From Brachyhypopomus gauderio (Eukaryota; Chordata; Actinopteri; Gymnotiformes; Hypopomidae): a stretch of 64,000 nt of DNA. The stretch lies in assembly GCF_052324685.1 (NCBI RefSeq), contig NC_135222.1:2495173-2559172 (forward strand), read 5' to 3'. Numbering within the stretch: the stretch's first letter is position 1; each line of letters begins with the position of its first letter. The notes below the pieces were generated by a model that worked only from the letters and a program-made list of their open reading frames with translations, was not told the origin of the DNA and made no database searches. Of the stretch, positions 1,856 through 51,817 are shown in pieces. The position numbers and the translations under genes were made by a program.

Positions 1856-4800
1856 ATGGCGACCTCAAACAATCCGCGGAAATTTAGCGAGAAAATCGCT
1901 CTGCACAATCAGAAGCAGGCGGAGGAGACTGCGGCGTTTGAAGAGGTTATGAAGGACCTGAGTATTACTCGAGCAGCGCGGGTACGTGTCCGCTGATCCC
2001 CGCGATGTGTCGGTGTAGGTGGCGCACAGGCTGAGGCTCCCAGCTGGACCAGAACATGTATGACTGAACGACCTTCCTGCTGACCAGCATCCGAACCGAA
2101 CACACCTGAACACACACACACACACATCACCGTGTGCATGTTGTCTCCGCGAGCTTTGTTAGAGCAGCGAGTGCAGAAATGTGTGGATGCACAGAACCGA
2201 GCCGCCTCGACAAAATGGGCTGCAGCTGTGATGCACATCTGCACCGAGACTCCTCGCATGCTCCTCTCAGTTTCTCCTCTCTGTTTCTTCTCGTCTGTTT
2301 CTCCTCTCTGTTTCTTCTCGTCTGTTTCTCCTCTCTGTTTCTCCTCGTCCGTGTCTGCTGTTTATTTTTATTCGCCCGAGTTGTGCAACATTTTCACTCA
2401 CAGTAATTTTGTCTATTCACGTATGCAGCGATTATTATATTGGAGCCGAACTTGTTTTCTTTTGAGGATGCAGTTTAAACTAAGTCATGTAGGTTTTCAC
2501 ATCCATCCTCGGCAAGGCCAATATCTTCATCTGCTGTCTAACCTAAATCCAGGGGTGATGTGTGAGTCGTGCACACCGACACGTTAGTGTGTGATCTCAC
2601 GTTTATCTCTCATTTGAATACCCAGGCGTTTATACTCCGCCAATTTGCGTTTATCCTTATGCATCAATTATTTTATATTTCACCATGATGGTATTTATGT
2701 TAGGATTCATTCATTCATGCGTTCACGCTGTCATTCACTCTGTCACTCATGCAATTTTATTTCGCACAGTTGCAGTTACAGAAGACCCAGTATTTGCAGC
2801 TAGGCCAGAATCGTGGTCAGTGCTATGGAGGTTCACTGCCCAATGTCAATCAGATTGGAAATAGCAACATTGACCTGCCTTTTCAGGTGAGCTCTTAGAA
2901 ACCATATCAGTTGAACTCTTTTTGTTTTGTCGCTGTTTTTGTGGGTTGAGATTCTCAATGGATGAGATTTAGTTAACCCACTTATTACTGGAGAGATGTT
3001 TGTGTTGGTACATTCTGAGACCTGTTGTGACCACACACATATTAAAATAGTTTTGACTTGACTTAATTGTTTGTACAGAACTGTATTTGTAAACATAGCC
3101 TAGAAAATAAATAGTTTTAACTTAAACACGATTGTAAAATATTGACAAATATTTCATTTAATCGGAGAAAGCTGTACATCAGTTTAAGATCAGGCAAGTC
3201 AAAATGGAACTTTTCTTTCTTTCTTTCTTTCTTTGCACTATTGCTCTACCACCATCTTCTAATTTATGCATTGCTGATATCACTGCATATTGACTATTTT
3301 ACATACAAAACATATGTGTAAATAGTTCTATATAAGAATTACTTTTATTTTAAACATGTGCCTTTTGCGGTTCTTTCCTTATTCAAATTTATGGCGACAT
3401 TGTGGTTTGCATCTCTCTCATCTATTACCTTTTATTGCAGCAACATATTTTAAAAGGCTTTTTAATTGTTATATGCCATATGATTCATGCCCAAGCACCG
3501 CCCACCACTGGCACTATGTAGGAGAAATCTTCGCTTACATCTGGCTGTCAGTGGTTCTAGTACATCATCATAGTTTAGATTATCATTGCGTTTCATTTCG
3601 TATCATGATATGATACATTAGCCCGATTATGAACAGAAAAATCTGACGATCTCATTGCATTTTATGCTTACATATCGCCAGTCCACCTTCAATTAAAATA
3701 GCTGCAGAGTGTGATTTCTTGTTTGTTTGTTTGATTTATTTGTTTATTTTGTGGTCAGATTCACTTGGCACTGAAAGGAACGGAAATCGAGAATGTTTGT
3801 ATTCGGTATTGATGAACCTGTAACCGGGCTGCCTGGTCAGATAGAGCCCATAAACTTATTAGACCCCTTTACAGACTACCGTTTTGGACACCAGCCGAAC
3901 GAGCCGGCACCACGGCTTGGTGGACCGTGTGTATCGTGACAGGAACCGGATCACCTCTCCGCATCGCCGGCCTCTGTCTGTTGACAAACACGGGCGTCAG
4001 ATATCCTTTAATGCTGCAGTCACATTGATCTCTGAACAGCCCTGTAAATCTAAAGACTGCGTTTGAGCAAGTTTGGGATTAATGCTTGTTGGCTTCAAAT
4101 TTTCAGATCTACTTCAAATTTTTAAATCTATTTCTTTCTTTGTTTGTTTTTTTGCAGTTTAAGTCTTTTGAGAAATCTCAAAAGTTGTATGATGAAGAAC
4201 AGTTGATTAAATAATGGTATTACCTTAAATTCTGCAATTGCAGCACTGAAAATGAAATATTACATCAGGACAGCATCACAGGCAGCAATAGCTATAGAAA
4301 CCAGAGGTCTGTATTCCACATATCACATTTTTACAGGCATTACAGACAGAGCTCACTTAGCCTCATTCCCAAAAAGGGCTCGTTAATTGCCTGAATTTCA
4401 TCTCATTTTCTGACACCTAATAATAAAATACCTAATAATAATAAGAATACGAATAATAATAGCATATTTTTATATTCTGTGTTTTTTTTTTTATTTTAGT
4501 TGGTTTAGCATGCACTAGCTCACCATTGTGTTGGATACGTTGGAGGTTAATGTCTAGATATTTCTATTCACATTTGTACCTGCAAATGAATAATGAATAT
4601 CAGATGTTCAGATGCCTGAAACTGTTTGGAGGACCTCCACGTTACGTAGCATTGTCCTTAACGCTGAGGAATACATTGATAGTTGTCCCTACGGCTCTGT
4701 GTATCTCTCGCCTCCCCCCGACACCAGCTGGAGAAGGTAAGGCTGCGTTCACTGCTGCAAACCATGTTAGAACGTACCTGGTGCACACCTTCAACATACA

Positions 4801-7800
4801 CCCCCCCCCCCAAACACTCACGCTTTCACTATGGTCGTGCGTCCGTTGCAGGACAAATTCAGACTCCGCCCTGCATCAGAGCGCCATGAATCCCGCCCCG
4901 CAGGACTCTTTCGTCGGAGGCTCCCAGGAACTACAGCCAAAACGAGGTAACGGGAGCAGTGGTCCAGATTTCCTGCTTGTGTCGGGCACCCCAGATAGAG
5001 GAAACCCACGTCTGACTTTCTTCCTCTCCTTTTCTAGTCCTGTTGCTCACCCCTCCAGATACAGAGGAACCTGAAGGAGAAATGGAGAAAGATGACCAGA
5101 AGGCATCACTCTGTCCCAAATCCCACGACGTTCCAGGGATTAAGTAAGAATTTGCTATACTGTATTTTATCGCTTTCCAGTCATTATCAATATTACAGCT
5201 TTGGGTTTTTTTTTATTGTGAGCAGTGGAATAACTAATTGGAGGATCTTAAGATTGCTTAATCAGACGTTTCAGCTCACTTTTGAGTGCCTCACGTGCGT
5301 TTGCTGATGTGCGCTTGCTGACGTGCGTTTGCTTCCACAGCATATTCCCGTCGCCTGACCAAGAGTTGACCACCTCCTTGATGCCTGCTGCGCACAACAC
5401 AGGGGGCTCCCTGCCCGACCTCACCAACATCCAGTTCCCCCCACCGCTGCCGACACCGCTGGACCCAGACGACCCGGTGGCCTTCCCCACCGCCTCGGGC
5501 AGCACGGGCAACCTGAGCAGCAACCTCACCCACCTGGGCATCGGCGTGCCCGCCTCTCCCCCGGCGCTGAGTGGACCGGCCCAACACGTTCCGCCCACCC
5601 TGGCGCTGAACATCGACGCGCAGCAGCCTCAGCCGTCCTGCCCCCAGCAGCTGTCCCCGACTCTCTCTCCCACTCTCTCACCTCAAATGTCCATCACCCA
5701 GGTGAGGTCCCCTCAGCCTCAGTGCTCGGCCTGTGCTGCTCACAACCGTACGATAATAAGGTTGTTGTCTCACCCAGACTATTTATTACTAGATTCTAAA
5801 TATTTGGCCATGAAAGCCCGTATTTCACTTTTGTATTTATTTGTTATGATAAATAGCACTTTTAGGGGAATTTACATCACCTGTTCAAATCACAGTAAAC
5901 ATTCATACACACACAGTAAATGCAGGTGCCTGATGTGGTGAGCAGTGTTACAGTGGCTGAATGTCATTCTTAGTTTAAGGGCATAATAGAGACCCTGTGA
6001 TGGGAGTTTAACCCCATGACAACACCATCAGTAAAGCCATCTTAATGCACTAGCACATAATTGTGATTCCTTGCCTGGAGGCACTTGAGTGGGAAACTCT
6101 GTCGGGACCCGGCCGGCACCAGTTCTGCGGGACGGGGGACGCGTCCTGGGAGGCAGCTTCCTCTGTCCTGCACATTGGCAGCGGTGTGTTTGTCCTGTCC
6201 CCCAGCCCATGGCGGTGGACGGCATGTCCCTGGAGCAGCAGCTGTCTCAGTACTCCCTCCTCAGCCTGCTGAGCGACCTACAGAAGCAGCAGCAGACGCT
6301 GCCTCAAAGCATCCGCCTCATCCAGCTGCCTCCGCTCACCGTCACCTCCGCCGCCCCGCCCTCACTGTCCAGCCAGTCGCCCACGGCCACCAGCGCCCCC
6401 ATCAGCTCGGTGAGTGCCACGCCACAACCCCCCCCCCCCTTATTGTCGCCCGCCGCAGCTGACCTAGCGACAGCTAATACGGTCACACCTTCAGCACCAA
6501 TCAGGATGCCGACTGCATCCGCCCACGGGGTTTGTTTTTGTTTTTGTTTTTGTTTTGTTTTATTTCCCCCACTTTGAACGCATGTAATGTTCCGACGAGC
6601 TCCTGCGAGCTACGGGCACGCCAGGCTCGGCCTCCGGACGCTGTCCTCGCTCCGGGGGGGGGGCGCACCCGCACCTGGACGCTGTGTCATTCTGAAAGGC
6701 CTCTTCCTTCCAGCAGTATCGCAGTCAGACTGGGTCTCCGGCCAACCAGTCCCCGACCTCCCCCGTCTCCAACCAGGGCTTCTCACCTGGAGGCTCGCCG
6801 CAAGTAAGGGCGGACCCCACCCCGCTTAACCCCGCCTCCCCGCTTAACCCCGCCTCCCCGCCATCCCGCCCTCCCCCGCCGCCTCTTCTGCTTTGGCCGC
6901 CCATCGCCCCCCCAGCATCCGTGTCTGCATTCCCTCCCCCTGCAATCGTTGCCCGGGTGACGCCGTGGTTTGTTTTTATGGGTACCATTTATCATGTCTT
7001 CAGCCGCCAGCGTGCGACAGGCGAAATAAATGGGCGGGGCTTAAAACATCCACCGTGTTGTTTGTAGATGTGTGTCGTGTATCGGGACGATGGCTCTGTG
7101 GGTAGGAGTTAGCAACCCAGCAGCCAGAAACCTGTTTAAGGTCCAGGGATTTGGGGGTGTTGAGTGTCAGGGACTTGGGGTGTTAAGGTCAGGGACTTGG
7201 GGGTGTTGAGTGTCAGGGATTTGGGGGTGTTGAGTGTCAGGGATTTGGGGGTGTTGAGTGTCAGGGATTTGGGGGTGTTAAGGTCAGGGATTTGGGGGTG
7301 TTGAGTGTCAGGGATTTGGGGGTGTTGAGGGTCAGGGATTTGGGGGTGTTGAGTGTCAGGGATTTGGGGGTGTTAAGGTCAGGGACTTGGGGGTGTTGAG
7401 TGTCAGGGATTTGGGGGTGTTGAGGGTCAGGGATTTGGGGGTGTTGAGGGTCAGGGATTTGGGGGTGTTGAGGGTCAGGGATTTGGGGGTGTTGAGGGTC
7501 AGGGATTTGGGGGTGTTGAGTGTGGCTGTTTGCTAACGACACAAGGGTTGCTGTCATAGCAGTATAATCCAATTATATCCAGTCTCTCCGCCATGCATAC
7601 ACTGACATGCAGGCCCGTCCCGCCTGGTGTGTATTTGCTGCAATAACAGAAATAAGTCCTCTAACTCCGCCCAGTTCCGCCGTCTACGTCCCAGAAAACG
7701 TTGGGGGTGGAACTGGGTTGGGAAACGGGCAGATTTAGAGGACTTGACGTTATTCAAAGTCAAAACTTTTCTTTTTTATTATTTTTATTTTATTGCAGTA

Positions 7801-10569
7801 GCATGTTGGCTATCCCTGTCTGTTTGCCTGAACGAACTTCAGTGTGTCCAGGAAGTGAAGAGAATCGTGCAGCTTGCAGTATGTTTGATTTCTTTTGCCT
7901 GCTGCTTCTGTTTCATGATGTCATGCCTTCGTGCGTGATCGTCCAGATTACATGTGGGTAGCAGGGTGGTTCCTGCAGGACGTAGACTCTTGAGGTCCAT
8001 AAACACTTGTTAATCCTGTTTATAATATAGGAGCAGTAGGTGTGAAGATCGTTATGTGGGCTTAGAGGCATAGTAAACATAGTAAACAGCATAACAATAA
8101 CATGCGTGTACATTCAATATATTAGCCATTGGTCTTTCATTCATTTAGAAAAACATTTGTTCTCGTTAAGTTGAGTTAGTGCGGCAGTAATGCTCACTGT
8201 TCATTTTAATATCAGTCCAAACCGTTTTGCATATGGAATGACCTCAGATGAGTAATTATGTAGCTGTAAAGAAGCACAGTTGCCTTTGAGGGTCATTCCA
8301 TATGATGTGAATGGTTAGTTGGCTGTGTTTTGTACACGCTCTGTCGCTTAGCTAAGTGCTTTGCTCTCATTGGTTTATAAATATCTCTGTGACAGTCAAG
8401 TGTCAACTTATGATTGGTGACTTTACCTATAACCGTCATGAAACGTACAATAAGTACTGTAGGAAGGTCTGAGTTTCTGAGTCCACTGTGAATACGTTTT
8501 GTATTTCATAGTTTGTGAAAAATTACACTAAATTACACAGTGGGTTACTGACCATCATTTTTTGTATCCTTTTCACACATTTTGCATGCTATTTTTAAAA
8601 GTTGCTGTAATATCATACATTTATCTTGAATAGAACTTTACCATGGTGTGTGGTAACATGTTATCTACAATACACTAATTGCTGATATTAACTGATATTG
8701 GTTAGCAAACCTGGTTTCATCCTAGATGCTAGAACTTTTTATTTTGAGGAACGTCTGTTAAACACATAAATTATTCTCAGGCATTATTGAAGTAGTTTGA
8801 GGTCTAGTAATATGTAATATGAGATGTATCCCAGTACAAAATTACAGCACAATTGTAGTGGACTCAGATTTTGGACCCTACTGTATTTATCTAGAAATTC
8901 CCTATTTAATTATGAAAGTTTATTCTCAAAAATGTGTGTAAGATTAAAGGTGCACTGGTTAACATTTTCCTTGGCTTTTCTGGTGGCTTTTTTGGTGTTA
9001 GGCAGGCTAACAGTTTTGAAATTTGATCTGATTCTTATTTACTCTATGTGTCTGTTAAAAAACGACACAAAAATAGGCCTTTTAAAAAAATAGGCTTTTT
9101 ATTTTATTTCATTCTTTTATGTACTTGAATTTCACTAGCCTGGGACTTTGTTATTAGGACCTAAAAGTGACTTTTATTGTGTTTATAGCATACTGGATTC
9201 ATTTATATTATTTCAATTTAAAAAGTCCCTGAGGAAATTTTAACTACTGCACCTTTAATGTTGACCGTCAAGTAAGGTAGCTTCATCATGTGTTGCCTCT
9301 AATCACTGGCCCAGTGCAATCAATACAGTGCTTTCTACTCCCATTTTGTGGTCTAGGACCATATTTAAACTGTATTGTTTTGTACTCCGCACACGCTAGA
9401 TGAGTCCTCTTAAATATGCCTCTACATAGAGCTTCTTATCTTTCTTCCTAGTCATTTCTTGTCGTTCTTGCCTGCGTGAAGCTTGAACTTAATGTTGACC
9501 CTTAACTGTTTGTTTCCATTTGGCGAGTGTCTAAAGTCAGAGCTGTGTGTCTAAATAACATTACGCCACGTCGCTTTCGAGACTGTGTCACCGCTTTTTA
9601 ACAGATGTCCTCAGATCCTTTGCGTGGACATTCCAGGCGTATGTCAGCGTCTCGCACTTTTGTTTGCACAAACATTTGAAAGGACGGCCATCGTCCTGGT
9701 GTGTGTGGAGTAAACCGAGGCCTCTCTCGCTGTCTTCGTAGCACATTCCCGTGGTGGGGAGCATCTTTGGCGACGCGTTCTATGAGCACCAGCTGGCCTC
9801 CAGACAGACCAACGCTCTGTCCCATCAGGTCAGTGCTCAACTTTGGACCATGTCCCTCAGTCCCTCACCTGGTTCACCTCGGAGCTTCCCTGCCGATATC
9901 GAGCCGTCTAGTGATCCTGAGTGTTTTTGGACTGTGTTGAAACTGGCCTGTTTAAAGAAGCTTTGGTGAACTATGATATTTGCTAGTGCACTCATTACAA
10001 TGGCATTTGTTATTCCCTAGCTTGAGCAGTTCAACATGAACATGATCGAGAACCCGAGCAGCTCTAACAGCCATTACAACCAGTGCTCCACACTCAACTA
10101 CACGCAGGCGGCCATGATGGGTCTGACTGGGAGCCACGGCAACTTGCAGGACACCCAGCAACTAGGCTACAGTAACCATGGCAACATTCCTAACATTATT
10201 CTCACAGGTATATTCTTTTCATCTGATCTTGTATGTCCACCCAGGGTCATGATTGTGGTCTCGGGTCATAAATCACACAGTGCTGGGTGATTGAGTAAAC
10301 TCTGTCCTTTATGAATCCTTTTGTTTGTTTGGTTGTGTTCTGAATGGTGAACGTCAGTGACCGGCGAGTCTCCACCCAGCCTCTCCAAGGAGCTGAGCAG
10401 TTCGCTGGCCGGCGTGGGCGATGTCAGCTTCGACGCAGACTCACAGTTCCCGCTCGACGAGCTGAAGATTGACCCGCTGACCCTCGATGGACTGCACATG
10501 CTCAACGACCCAGACATGGTGCTTGCCGACCCGGCCACTGAGGACACGTTCCGCATGGACCGGCTGTGA
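1856..10569 (+). CDS. crtc1: CREB-regulated transcription coactivator 1
   Basis: Coactivator that binds the bZIP of CREB and shuttles from cytoplasm to nucleus after dephosphorylation. Twelve exons: 1856-1981, 2770-2886, 3875-4000, 4675-4736, 4852-4946, 5038-5143, 5341-5701, 6206-6409, 6714-6803, 9742-9828, 10021-10207, 10358-10569. Phases agree throughout and give 590 aa (human 634). Exon 1 encodes the CREB-binding domain ([20 protein letters not shown] at the start). Exon 2 has the [11 protein letters not shown] phosphosite region. Exons 4-5 join to [10 protein letters not shown], the SIK-phosphorylated 14-3-3 site, near residue 149. Exon 7 has [10 protein letters not shown]. The last exon encodes the acidic transactivation domain ending [13 protein letters not shown], which identifies CRTC1 rather than CRTC2 or 3. 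The mammalian poly-Pro/Gln stretch is much reduced around exon 8. Intron 3 is U12-type AT-AC. Whether this is the a or b teleost duplicate is not decidable here. Confidence 0.96.
2270..2350. repeat. 27-bp pyrimidine-rich minisatellite, 3 copies
   Basis: Three copies of a 27-base CT-rich unit at 2270, 2297 and 2324 lie in crtc1 intron 1. The third copy has a few substitutions. Open frames through it are a by-product of the unit length being a multiple of three. Confidence 0.85.
4001..4674 (+). other. crtc1: U12-type AT-AC intron (crtc1 intron 3)
   Basis: The donor is ATATCCTTTAA right after the GGGCGTCAG codons, a perfect minor-spliceosome 5' splice site. TCCTTAAC at 4655-4662 is a near-perfect U12 branch point. 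The intron ends in AC at 4674, about 13 bases after the branch adenosine, which is the spacing U12 introns require. No GT-AG pair here restores the protein. With the AT-AC boundaries, exons 3 and 4 join to [16 protein letters not shown], matching human RQADSCPYGTMYLSPP. Confidence 0.93.
7141..7524. repeat. 24-bp G-rich minisatellite, about 16 copies
   Basis: This array lies in the 2.9-kb crtc1 intron 9. Each unit contains GGGATTTGGGGGTGTTGAG, with T/C and short indel variants; a few units are shortened to GTTAAGG forms. Every unit offers two G-runs on the sense strand, so DNA or pre-mRNA quadruplexes are possible. Long open frames on the minus strand through it are artefacts of the repeat. 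Confidence 0.9.
7654..7745. repeat. Imperfect inverted repeat in crtc1 intron 9
   Basis: The outer 11 bases are perfectly inverted (AAGTCCTCTAA and TTAGAGGACTT). Pairing continues imperfectly inward for about 14 more bases. The internal sequence is GC-rich compared with its surroundings. It could be a short fold-back or MITE remnant; no clear target duplication was seen. Confidence 0.55.
8230..8304. repeat. 75-bp hairpin with 14-bp perfect arms
   Basis: CATATGGAATGACC at 8230-8243 is perfectly inverted as GGTCATTCCATATG at 8291-8304, around a 47-base loop. Weaker pairing extends outward. It lies in crtc1 intron 9 and matches no RNA family I know. A small MITE or an intronic hairpin are both possible. 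Confidence 0.7.
8948..9254. mobile_element. piggyBac-type MITE (non-autonomous)
   Basis: A 307-base element is flanked on both sides by TTAA (8944-8947 and 9255-9258), the piggyBac target duplication. Its ends are inverted: AGGTGCACTGGTTAACATTT on the left and, read inward from the right, AGGTGCAGTAGTTAAAATTT. It has no coding capacity. Similar AGGTGCA-ended MITEs are common in fish genomes. It lies in crtc1 intron 9 between exons 9 and 10. Confidence 0.8.
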
Positions 10570-37061: not shown

Positions 37062-41528
<4,467 letters not shown>

Positions 41529-43130
41529 GCCGGGACACGTTTAGACAAACCTGTTTAACTGTAAGAGGACACTGTCTCTTGTGTGGGACTGAAGCTCTGA
41601 GTCCACGGAGGAAAGTTTCCTTTCACATGTTTGTGTAACAGCTTTTCTGTGCCACGTCCTCATATTTATTTAGCCTTTTTATGCAGATGATTTTTTTTAA
41701 ACCATGGTGGAATGTCTTTACGTAGTAGCTTAGTTCAAATCAAGATTTTGTTTTGCACAAGAACTCAACCTTACAATAATAATGTATTCTGTCATAAAAC
41801 TATATATAAATTGAAGATGTGATTGTTGCTTTCAGCATCTTTTGGCGGGGGGGAAATGGGGAGGACCTCAGAAGTTGAAATGCTTCACTAACTACCACAC
41901 ACTGGGACTACATACATGATCATTTAACGTTCATAAAAGGTTTCCTAAACTTGGAGTATTCTAGTTTGTAACTGTTATCTTGTATTTATTTTTGTAGAAA
42001 TTCTGAGCAAGGCATGTCTTGTGTCATGGGAGAATACATTTTGATTGTGTAATGTCTCCTAAAGGATTACCATGCTCTCTTCTTGATGGTTAGTTGGTAC
42101 TTTCTGGTAATTGATGTTTGAGAGTTAGTACTGTCCTCATACAGACCCACCTGAATCATGTAGCAGTTCTGATATTTGCTCGTCATTAACTGTCTGGGCT
42201 TTATTTATTTTATTTTTGGGGGGACTGTATAAAAAGCTTTAATTGTTTTTGTTTATTTTTGTGTTTTTGAGTGGGAGGAGACTTGTGTGTCTAGGCCTAC
42301 AATTGTGATGTGGAGAACCAAATCTTTGAAAAATATAATTTTTCAAAGTGATGGTGGATTCTGGCTCAGCCTTATAGCCTCAATGTTTGATAGGAGGTCC
42401 AGCCTTACAAAGTTCTTACAGCTACTGTATTTTTGGGGACCTTGGTCTGTCCAGATTATTGATTGGTGGGTCATGAGTATTAAACTAATTCTCGGCATTA
42501 AGCTTGTTTTTTCCTCTTCCATGTCAACAACAAAGTTTCTTTGATGCTGGTATTAATTTACCTGTGTAGGAAACATGAAACATGTGGATTAGAGGTGTCT
42601 TCACATCTTCTGAGGAACAAAATTGTTAAAAGCTTCCAACTATGACTCAATGAAAACGTTTGAGGCAGTGAACATGCAGTGTTGCCTGCAGTACAGATGA
42701 GTAGAACAAATGGCTTGATTTCCCGTCTAAGAATCAATTATGGATATCTTATATCTTTATATGTTGCACCTACCTTAACAAAATGAACCTGCTGGCATTA
42801 TGTACTGTTCAAATAGCTTGGCTCAGAAAGTTGCCTGTCTTATCATGGCCTTGTGATGAAGGGTGCGATCCAGGAACTAGCATAACTAGCATTTGTATTT
42901 GTTTTTTTGTTAGTTTGTTTTTTGACATAATACAAATATGTAATTTAGCTCCCCAACTCCTACAGTGACCCGGTTTTGGCTCATACTGTCTGCATTCTGT
43001 TCCATGTTTTGGAAGTGTTTGTTTTTGTATTCATTTAGGTTTTTGTTTTTTCTTGGGGCAGTGTTCCCTTGTTAAATAGTCTGACTGCAGGGAAGTTGGA
43101 CTGAATTTTAATAAAGAGTATGGACATTTT
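41529..43130 (+). other. slc35e1: slc35e1 3' UTR
   Basis: About 1.6 kb of T-rich sequence from the stop codon to an AATAAA at 43110-43115. No repeats or competing coding frames are evident. Confidence 0.6.
43110..43115 (+). terminator. slc35e1: Candidate slc35e1 polyadenylation signal
   Basis: AATAAA about 1.58 kb after the stop codon, just before a TA microsatellite. Confidence 0.5.
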
Positions 43131-50614: not shown

Positions 50615-51817
50615 GTGTATGTGTGTGTATTTATATGTTTAACAGGACCAGTACGGCCACCAAATAAACCCACCATGCTCTCACAGTCGTTTTCAAAGCT
50701 GTAAGTTTGTTAATAAATGCTTCTTAATGTTTTTCATTGAGCCTCAGTATGGAACATCTGAAATGCTATTGTGTGTCAGCGTAACATTAATACCATACTC
50801 ATTGCGACAAACACTGCTTTATTATGGCACAGAAAAACAGGCAAAAATGTCATTTTTTTCTTTACTCCTGGAGTGTGTGGGTGCATGTTTGCTAACTGCA
50901 CTGCAGATTCTGGAATTTCCCGAGACTTATGCACATCAAAGTCAATGGCATGCTGTGTGCACTGTAAAATCACCACTGTTGAATTCAATCTTGTTTTCAG
51001 CAGTGCTCAATAATAAAATGAAACATCTTTCTTTCTTTCTTGATTTTTTGTTAGAAATGTCTACCCTGATCAGGACACGTATGATGACATTGATCTGCCG
51101 CCTCCCCCTCCTCCCCCTCCCAAACCGTCCTCCAGAGGTAAACAACACCGTCTTCCACACCATCACTATCAACACCGTCTTCCACACCATCACTATCAAC
51201 ACCGTCTTCCACACCATCACTATCAACACCGTCTTCCACACCATCACTATCATCACCGTCTTCCACACCATCACTATCAACACCGTCTTCCACACCATCA
51301 CTATCAACACCGTCTTCCACACCATCACTATCAACACCGTCTTCCACACCATCACTATCAACACCGTCTTCCACACCATCACTATCATCACCGTCTTCCA
51401 CACCATCACTATCAACACCGTCTTCCACACCATCACTATCAACACCGTCTTCCACACCATCACTATCATCACCGTCTTCCACACCATCACTATCAACACC
51501 GTCTTCCACACCATCACTATCAACACCGTCTTCCACACCATCACTATGAATGAACTCTTACCTTTCGGTGAATGAATGAACTCTTACCTTCTTTCGGTGA
51601 ATGAATGAACTCTTACCTTTCGGTGAATGAATGAACTCTTACCTTTCGGTGAATGAATGCATTTGTCTTTGTTCAGTCATGTTACCTGCATGCTGAATAG
51701 CCTCTGCACAACATGCAGAAACCATCAACAGATGCATCATGTGGGTGTAGACAGATACCAAACATCCCGCAGAATGGCTTTTCTTTTTCTCCTGCACTTA
51801 ACAGCAGCTTGGATATC

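Follow-up and report, generated by a model that had tools for sequence, protein, structure and literature searches.

The window analysed here, a 64,000-nucleotide stretch of the Brachyhypopomus gauderio genome (C12:2495173-2559172), carries a CRTC-family gene of 12 exons, taken to be crtc1, on its forward strand. Exon 1 (1856..1981) opens with the ATG and supplies 42 codons of the TORC_N domain, the end of which is encoded by the 39 codons of exon 2 (2770..2886). Exon 3 (3875..4000), also of 42 codons, closes in phase 0 with the residues KHGRQ and is followed by exon 4 (4675..4736) and by exon 5 (4852..4946), in which the sequence TNSDSALH and the start of TORC_M are found. Exons 6 to 12 and their intervening GT-AG introns occupy 5038..10569, the protein ending in TFRMDRL and the stop codon lying at 10567-10569. 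Spliced with an AT-AC join between exons 3 and 4, the 12 exons give one open frame of 590 residues and a stop. A Pfam scan of the protein, covering the first five exons, returned TORC_N at 88.4 bits and TORC_M at 48.6 bits (positions 1-31 of 158), both above cut-off. The assignment to the CRTC family and the placement of the intron between exons 3 and 4, both proposed in an earlier, sequence-only reading of the window, hold.

In the last two exons 8 of 16 CRTC1-type words match in frame, the words being those of human CRTC1 apart from one taken from the window. Against solved structures, the 176 amino acids of the first five exons scored 73.4 bits with the CRTC2 chain 5zko_G, and the 71-residue N-terminus of a paralogue on contig C13, described below, scored 97.4 bits with the same chain. 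The strong matches of these two queries are three CRTC2 N-terminal fragments, none of which reaches the exon 3-4 junction. Three unrelated chains matched by the five exons at E values of 0.48-0.75 were set aside, as was chain 5h7b_A (E 2.2e-4) from the search with the C13 N-terminus. In viral_contigs and genome_contigs, 4 and 54 stretches respectively matched the search pattern and none was confirmed as a relative. Within intron 9 of crtc1 there is also a minisatellite (7144-7523) of 16 copies of a 24-bp unit with a higher-order period of 95 bp.

Intron 3 (4001..4674, forward strand, 674 nt, phase 0) has the elements of a U12-type AT-AC intron. The 10-nt donor word ATATCCTTTA at 4001-4010 lies directly after the final codons of exon 3 (AAA CAC GGG CGT CAG), and within it the U12-type 5' splice site ATATCCTTT (4001..4009) agrees at 9 of 9 positions with the consensus used for scoring, RTATCCTTT. 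The branch site TCCTTAAC is found at 4655..4662, with A4661 (or A4660) as the candidate branch nucleotide, and scores 8 of 9 (GTCCTTAAC against the consensus TTCCTTAAC). The intron terminates in the AC at 4673..4674 and exon 4 begins at 4675 with ATT GAT AGT TGT CCC, such that the AT and AC termini yield the conserved peptide GRQ/IDSCPYG, where the slash marks the junction. The distance from A4661 to the last base of the intron is 13 nt, which falls within the 11-13 nt described as optimal for U12-type introns (PMC3584512). By eye, no distinct polypyrimidine tract precedes the 3' end in the last 16 nt, TAACGCTGAGGAATAC. The other 10 introns of the gene provide an internal control: all 10 begin with GT and end with AG, their donors score 2 to 6 of 9 against the U12 consensus, and their best branch-like words score 4 to 6 of 9 where there are any. 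The U12-type AT-AC class, the exact coordinates and the minor-spliceosome type of spacing between donor, branch site and AC claimed in the sequence-only reading are all upheld.

The same reading had suggested a comparison with CRTC2 and CRTC3. In the 796.5 Mb of the genome (840 contigs) four TORC_N exons were found, all over cut-off, on C12, C1, C13 and C6. A protein search of the genome led to the same four places, and also gave a weak match on C18 (E 0.913, 16 matches, three stops), which was left aside. The TORC_N search scored 7 of 7 candidates, and since it rested on these a very diverged CRTC copy could be missed. From human sequences we take the gene on C1 to be crtc3-like and those on C13 and C6 to be crtc2-like. 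All three have a U12-like donor at the site of crtc1 intron 3 and likewise in phase 0. In the C1 gene the intron (L025 3502-5778, 2277 nt) reads ATATCCTTC ... TTCTTTGAC ... AC, with a branch score of 8 of 9 and a distance of 9 nt from the branch A to the 3' end. In the C13 gene, on the minus strand, it reads GTATCCTCA ... GTCTTTAAC ... AG (L026 6022-6315 from the minus-strand end, 294 nt; branch 7 of 9, distance 13 nt), and in the C6 gene GTATCCATC ... GACTTTAAC ... AG (L027 2059-2228, 170 nt; branch 6 of 9, distance 13 nt). The flanking peptides are GRQ/AESSPYG, RRQ/MDSSHCS and RRH/TDSAPYL for C1, C13 and C6, compared with GRQ/IDSCPYG in the window. The probability of RTATCC at a fixed place is 3e-4 to 4e-4 in each paralogue locus.

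These copies are not equally strong. In the C1 intron the distance from the branch A to the 3' end is below the 11-13 nt optimum. The AC end there was preferred for its gapless alignment; an AT-AG end 6 nt downstream also stays in frame. The C6 copy is the weakest, since its exon 3 has diverged and had to be identified from the open frame and the exon ends, not from similarity. At this common site the subtypes are split, with AT-AC in crtc1 and the crtc3-like gene and GT-AG in both crtc2-like genes. The comparison fits an ancestral U12 intron: as a U12-like intron stands at the same place and in the same phase in the other CRTC genes, intron 3 most likely predates the CRTC duplications.

To define which boundaries restore the protein, 25,200 joins between exons 3 and 4 were scanned, corresponding to 180 donor and 140 acceptor places. 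The gapless peptide GRQ/IDSCPYG is given by four of them, 4000/4675 to 4003/4678, which are mutually equivalent shifts, and only 4000/4675, as AT-AC, has accepted termini. With termini restricted to GT-AG, GC-AG, AT-AC, AT-AG or GT-AC, and with GRQ and DSCPYG kept and 0 to 6 residues allowed between them, three joins pass: AT-AC 4000/4675, AT-AG 4000/4669 and AT-AC 4000/4663, the last of which adds AEEY and uses the AC of the branch site itself. Pfam scores were rejected as a judge of the junction, because the models end before it and start after it; TORC_M scores 48.6 bits with the AT-AC join and 48.5 to 48.8 with three rival joins. A conventional U2-type GT-AG intron with other boundaries could draw on the 20 GT-AG joins that preserve the reading frame, but every one of the 20 deletes or inserts residues, none keeps GRQ and DSCPYG within the permitted 0 to 6 residues, and the paralogues carry U12-like donors at the same place, so that we regard such an intron as extremely improbable. 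A GT-AG pair giving the conserved peptide, which the sequence-only reading had named as evidence against itself, is thus absent from the 25,200 joins. A U12-type intron that has AT-AG termini and stops at 4668, either in place of the AC form or as a lesser isoform next to it, is marginally easier to entertain and still very unlikely. The join 4000/4669 is in frame, adding Glu-Tyr (EY), but its AG ends only 7 nt from the branch A at 4661, AT-AG termini are described as disfavoured (PMC3584512), and the joins chosen in the paralogues align with no counterpart of this dipeptide. The earlier statement that only these boundaries restore the protein therefore needs qualification: 4000/4675 is the sole gapless join with accepted termini, but 20 GT-AG joins and AT-AG 4000/4669 also keep the frame and four joins encode the same peptide.

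Whether the motifs at intron 3 might coincide by chance can be judged from their frequency in the window. On both strands RTATCCTT occurs 6 times against 4.38 expected and TCCTTRAC 3 times against 4.21 expected, and loose sets of donor, branch site and end number three on the forward strand and two on the reverse, where 20 simulated sequences gave 2.1 per strand on average. By themselves, then, U12 motifs are about as frequent over 64 kb as chance predicts. Since the number of rows equals that in simulated sequence, the further U12-like rows (4001 with 5374-5395, 41376 with 42771-42788, and 39421 on the minus strand with two ends) were taken as chance. The second of these contains another donor word, ATATCCTT at 41376-41383, which lies within apparent coding sequence of another gene, in an open frame running from an AG to a stop that resembles a last coding exon, and which is probably a chance U12-donor word. 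The weight of the motif evidence in crtc1 is in the exact placement at coding-exon edges, where donor and branch site would occur together at fixed positions with a probability of about 1e-8 under a first-order Markov model, a value uncorrected for the 11 introns of the gene. Coincidence is further contradicted by the recurrence of U12-like donors in the three paralogues, and we consider its probability negligible.

The genome also encodes the RNAs of the minor spliceosome. Matches over the gathering scores were found for U11 (112.9 bits), U12 (127.9) and U4atac (87.2), one each, and for U6atac, with one strong match (130.6 bits) and two weak ones (34.6 each); each search scored 40 to 49 candidates out of many thousands, and these gene counts are lower bounds. 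An Rfam scan of the window itself gave nothing at gathering threshold. Positions +4 to +9 of the crtc1 donor can pair over 6 bp with AAAGGG of U11 and over 6 bp with AAAGGA of U6atac, and TCCTTA of the branch site with TAAGGA of U12, the latter having been computed without a control. When 4 of the 10 available control donors were paired in free register, they reached 3 to 5 bp with U6atac. Two of the four did reach 6 bp with U11, for which reason free-register U11 pairing was rejected as a discriminating test. The paralogue donors pair less well with U11 than the crtc1 donor, over 5, 4 and 3 bp, the last being that of C6. Overall the pairing agrees with the U12 reading without being proof of it.

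With the join scan and the paralogues taken into account, intron 3 of crtc1 is almost certainly a U12-type AT-AC intron, and one that most likely already stood at this site and in this phase when CRTC1, CRTC2 and CRTC3 arose by duplication. On this interpretation U11 and then U6atac would pair with the donor, U12 would pair with the branch site and bulge out an A, and 4000 would be joined to 4675 by the minor spliceosome to give GRQ/IDSCPYG. We infer from the sequence that splicing of the intron would depend on U11/U12 splicing. Were the intron retained, the frame would stop after 21 codons of intron, giving at most 144 amino acids, a product that would hold only the N-terminal CREB-binding part; in each of the four CRTC genes found, a stop comes 17 to 26 codons into the intron. 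It would seem more likely that transcripts retaining intron 3 are decayed or kept in the nucleus. A regulatory role, in which minor-spliceosome activity would set the balance between full-length Crtc1 and the 144-residue retained product and low U6atac would lead to a dominant-negative Crtc1, appears improbable. If it were true, the product would keep the CREB-binding N-terminus and be without the activation domain and the SIK/14-3-3 site region, which is presumably at TNSDSALH.

In its donor ATATCCTT, branch site TCCTTAAC, AC end and short branch-to-end distance, intron 3 is like U12-type AT-AC introns as defined in the consulted parts of PMC2831892 and PMC3584512; the minor snRNA genes are present in the genome as expected and no difference from such introns was seen. 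It is a genuine and ordinary intron of a kind already known, the CRTC family being listed among minor-intron genes. In the sections of their human analysis consulted, Baumgartner et al. (2019, PMC6865273) count three minor-intron genes in the CRTC family, which in our reading are CRTC1-3, and treat them as a single gain in an ancestral gene, the dating there being of genes and not of introns. The four CRTC genes described here agree in that several members have a minor intron, a likeness at the level of the family as those sections do not give the position or termini of the human introns; compared with the three human genes, this genome has two that are crtc2-like. Vertebrate intron type is reported as remarkably conserved in the portion of Lin et al. 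(2010, PMC2831892) consulted, where 36 clusters hold both U12 subtypes. Both subtypes of the AT-AC to GT-AG switching treated there occur at one site here too, the difference being that they are found between paralogues of one genome, and without a direction being assigned. Our literature search returned nothing joining CRTC1 with U12-type, AT-AC or minor spliceosome, nor CRTC2 or CRTC3 with a minor intron, and CRTC1 was absent among the matches listed for intron retention and minor introns. The data support, in this genome, one shared site for the CRTC minor intron in each copy found, with its AT-AC and GT-AG forms seen side by side, and the exon 3-4 junction of crtc1 is worth checking by annotators.

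Elsewhere in the window, a tandem array of 8.3 copies of a 32-bp unit (40917-41182, 100% matches) lies shortly before the apparent last coding exon of another gene. An array of 15 copies of a 27-bp unit with 98% matches is found at 51143-51547, with an array of a 26-bp unit directly after it.
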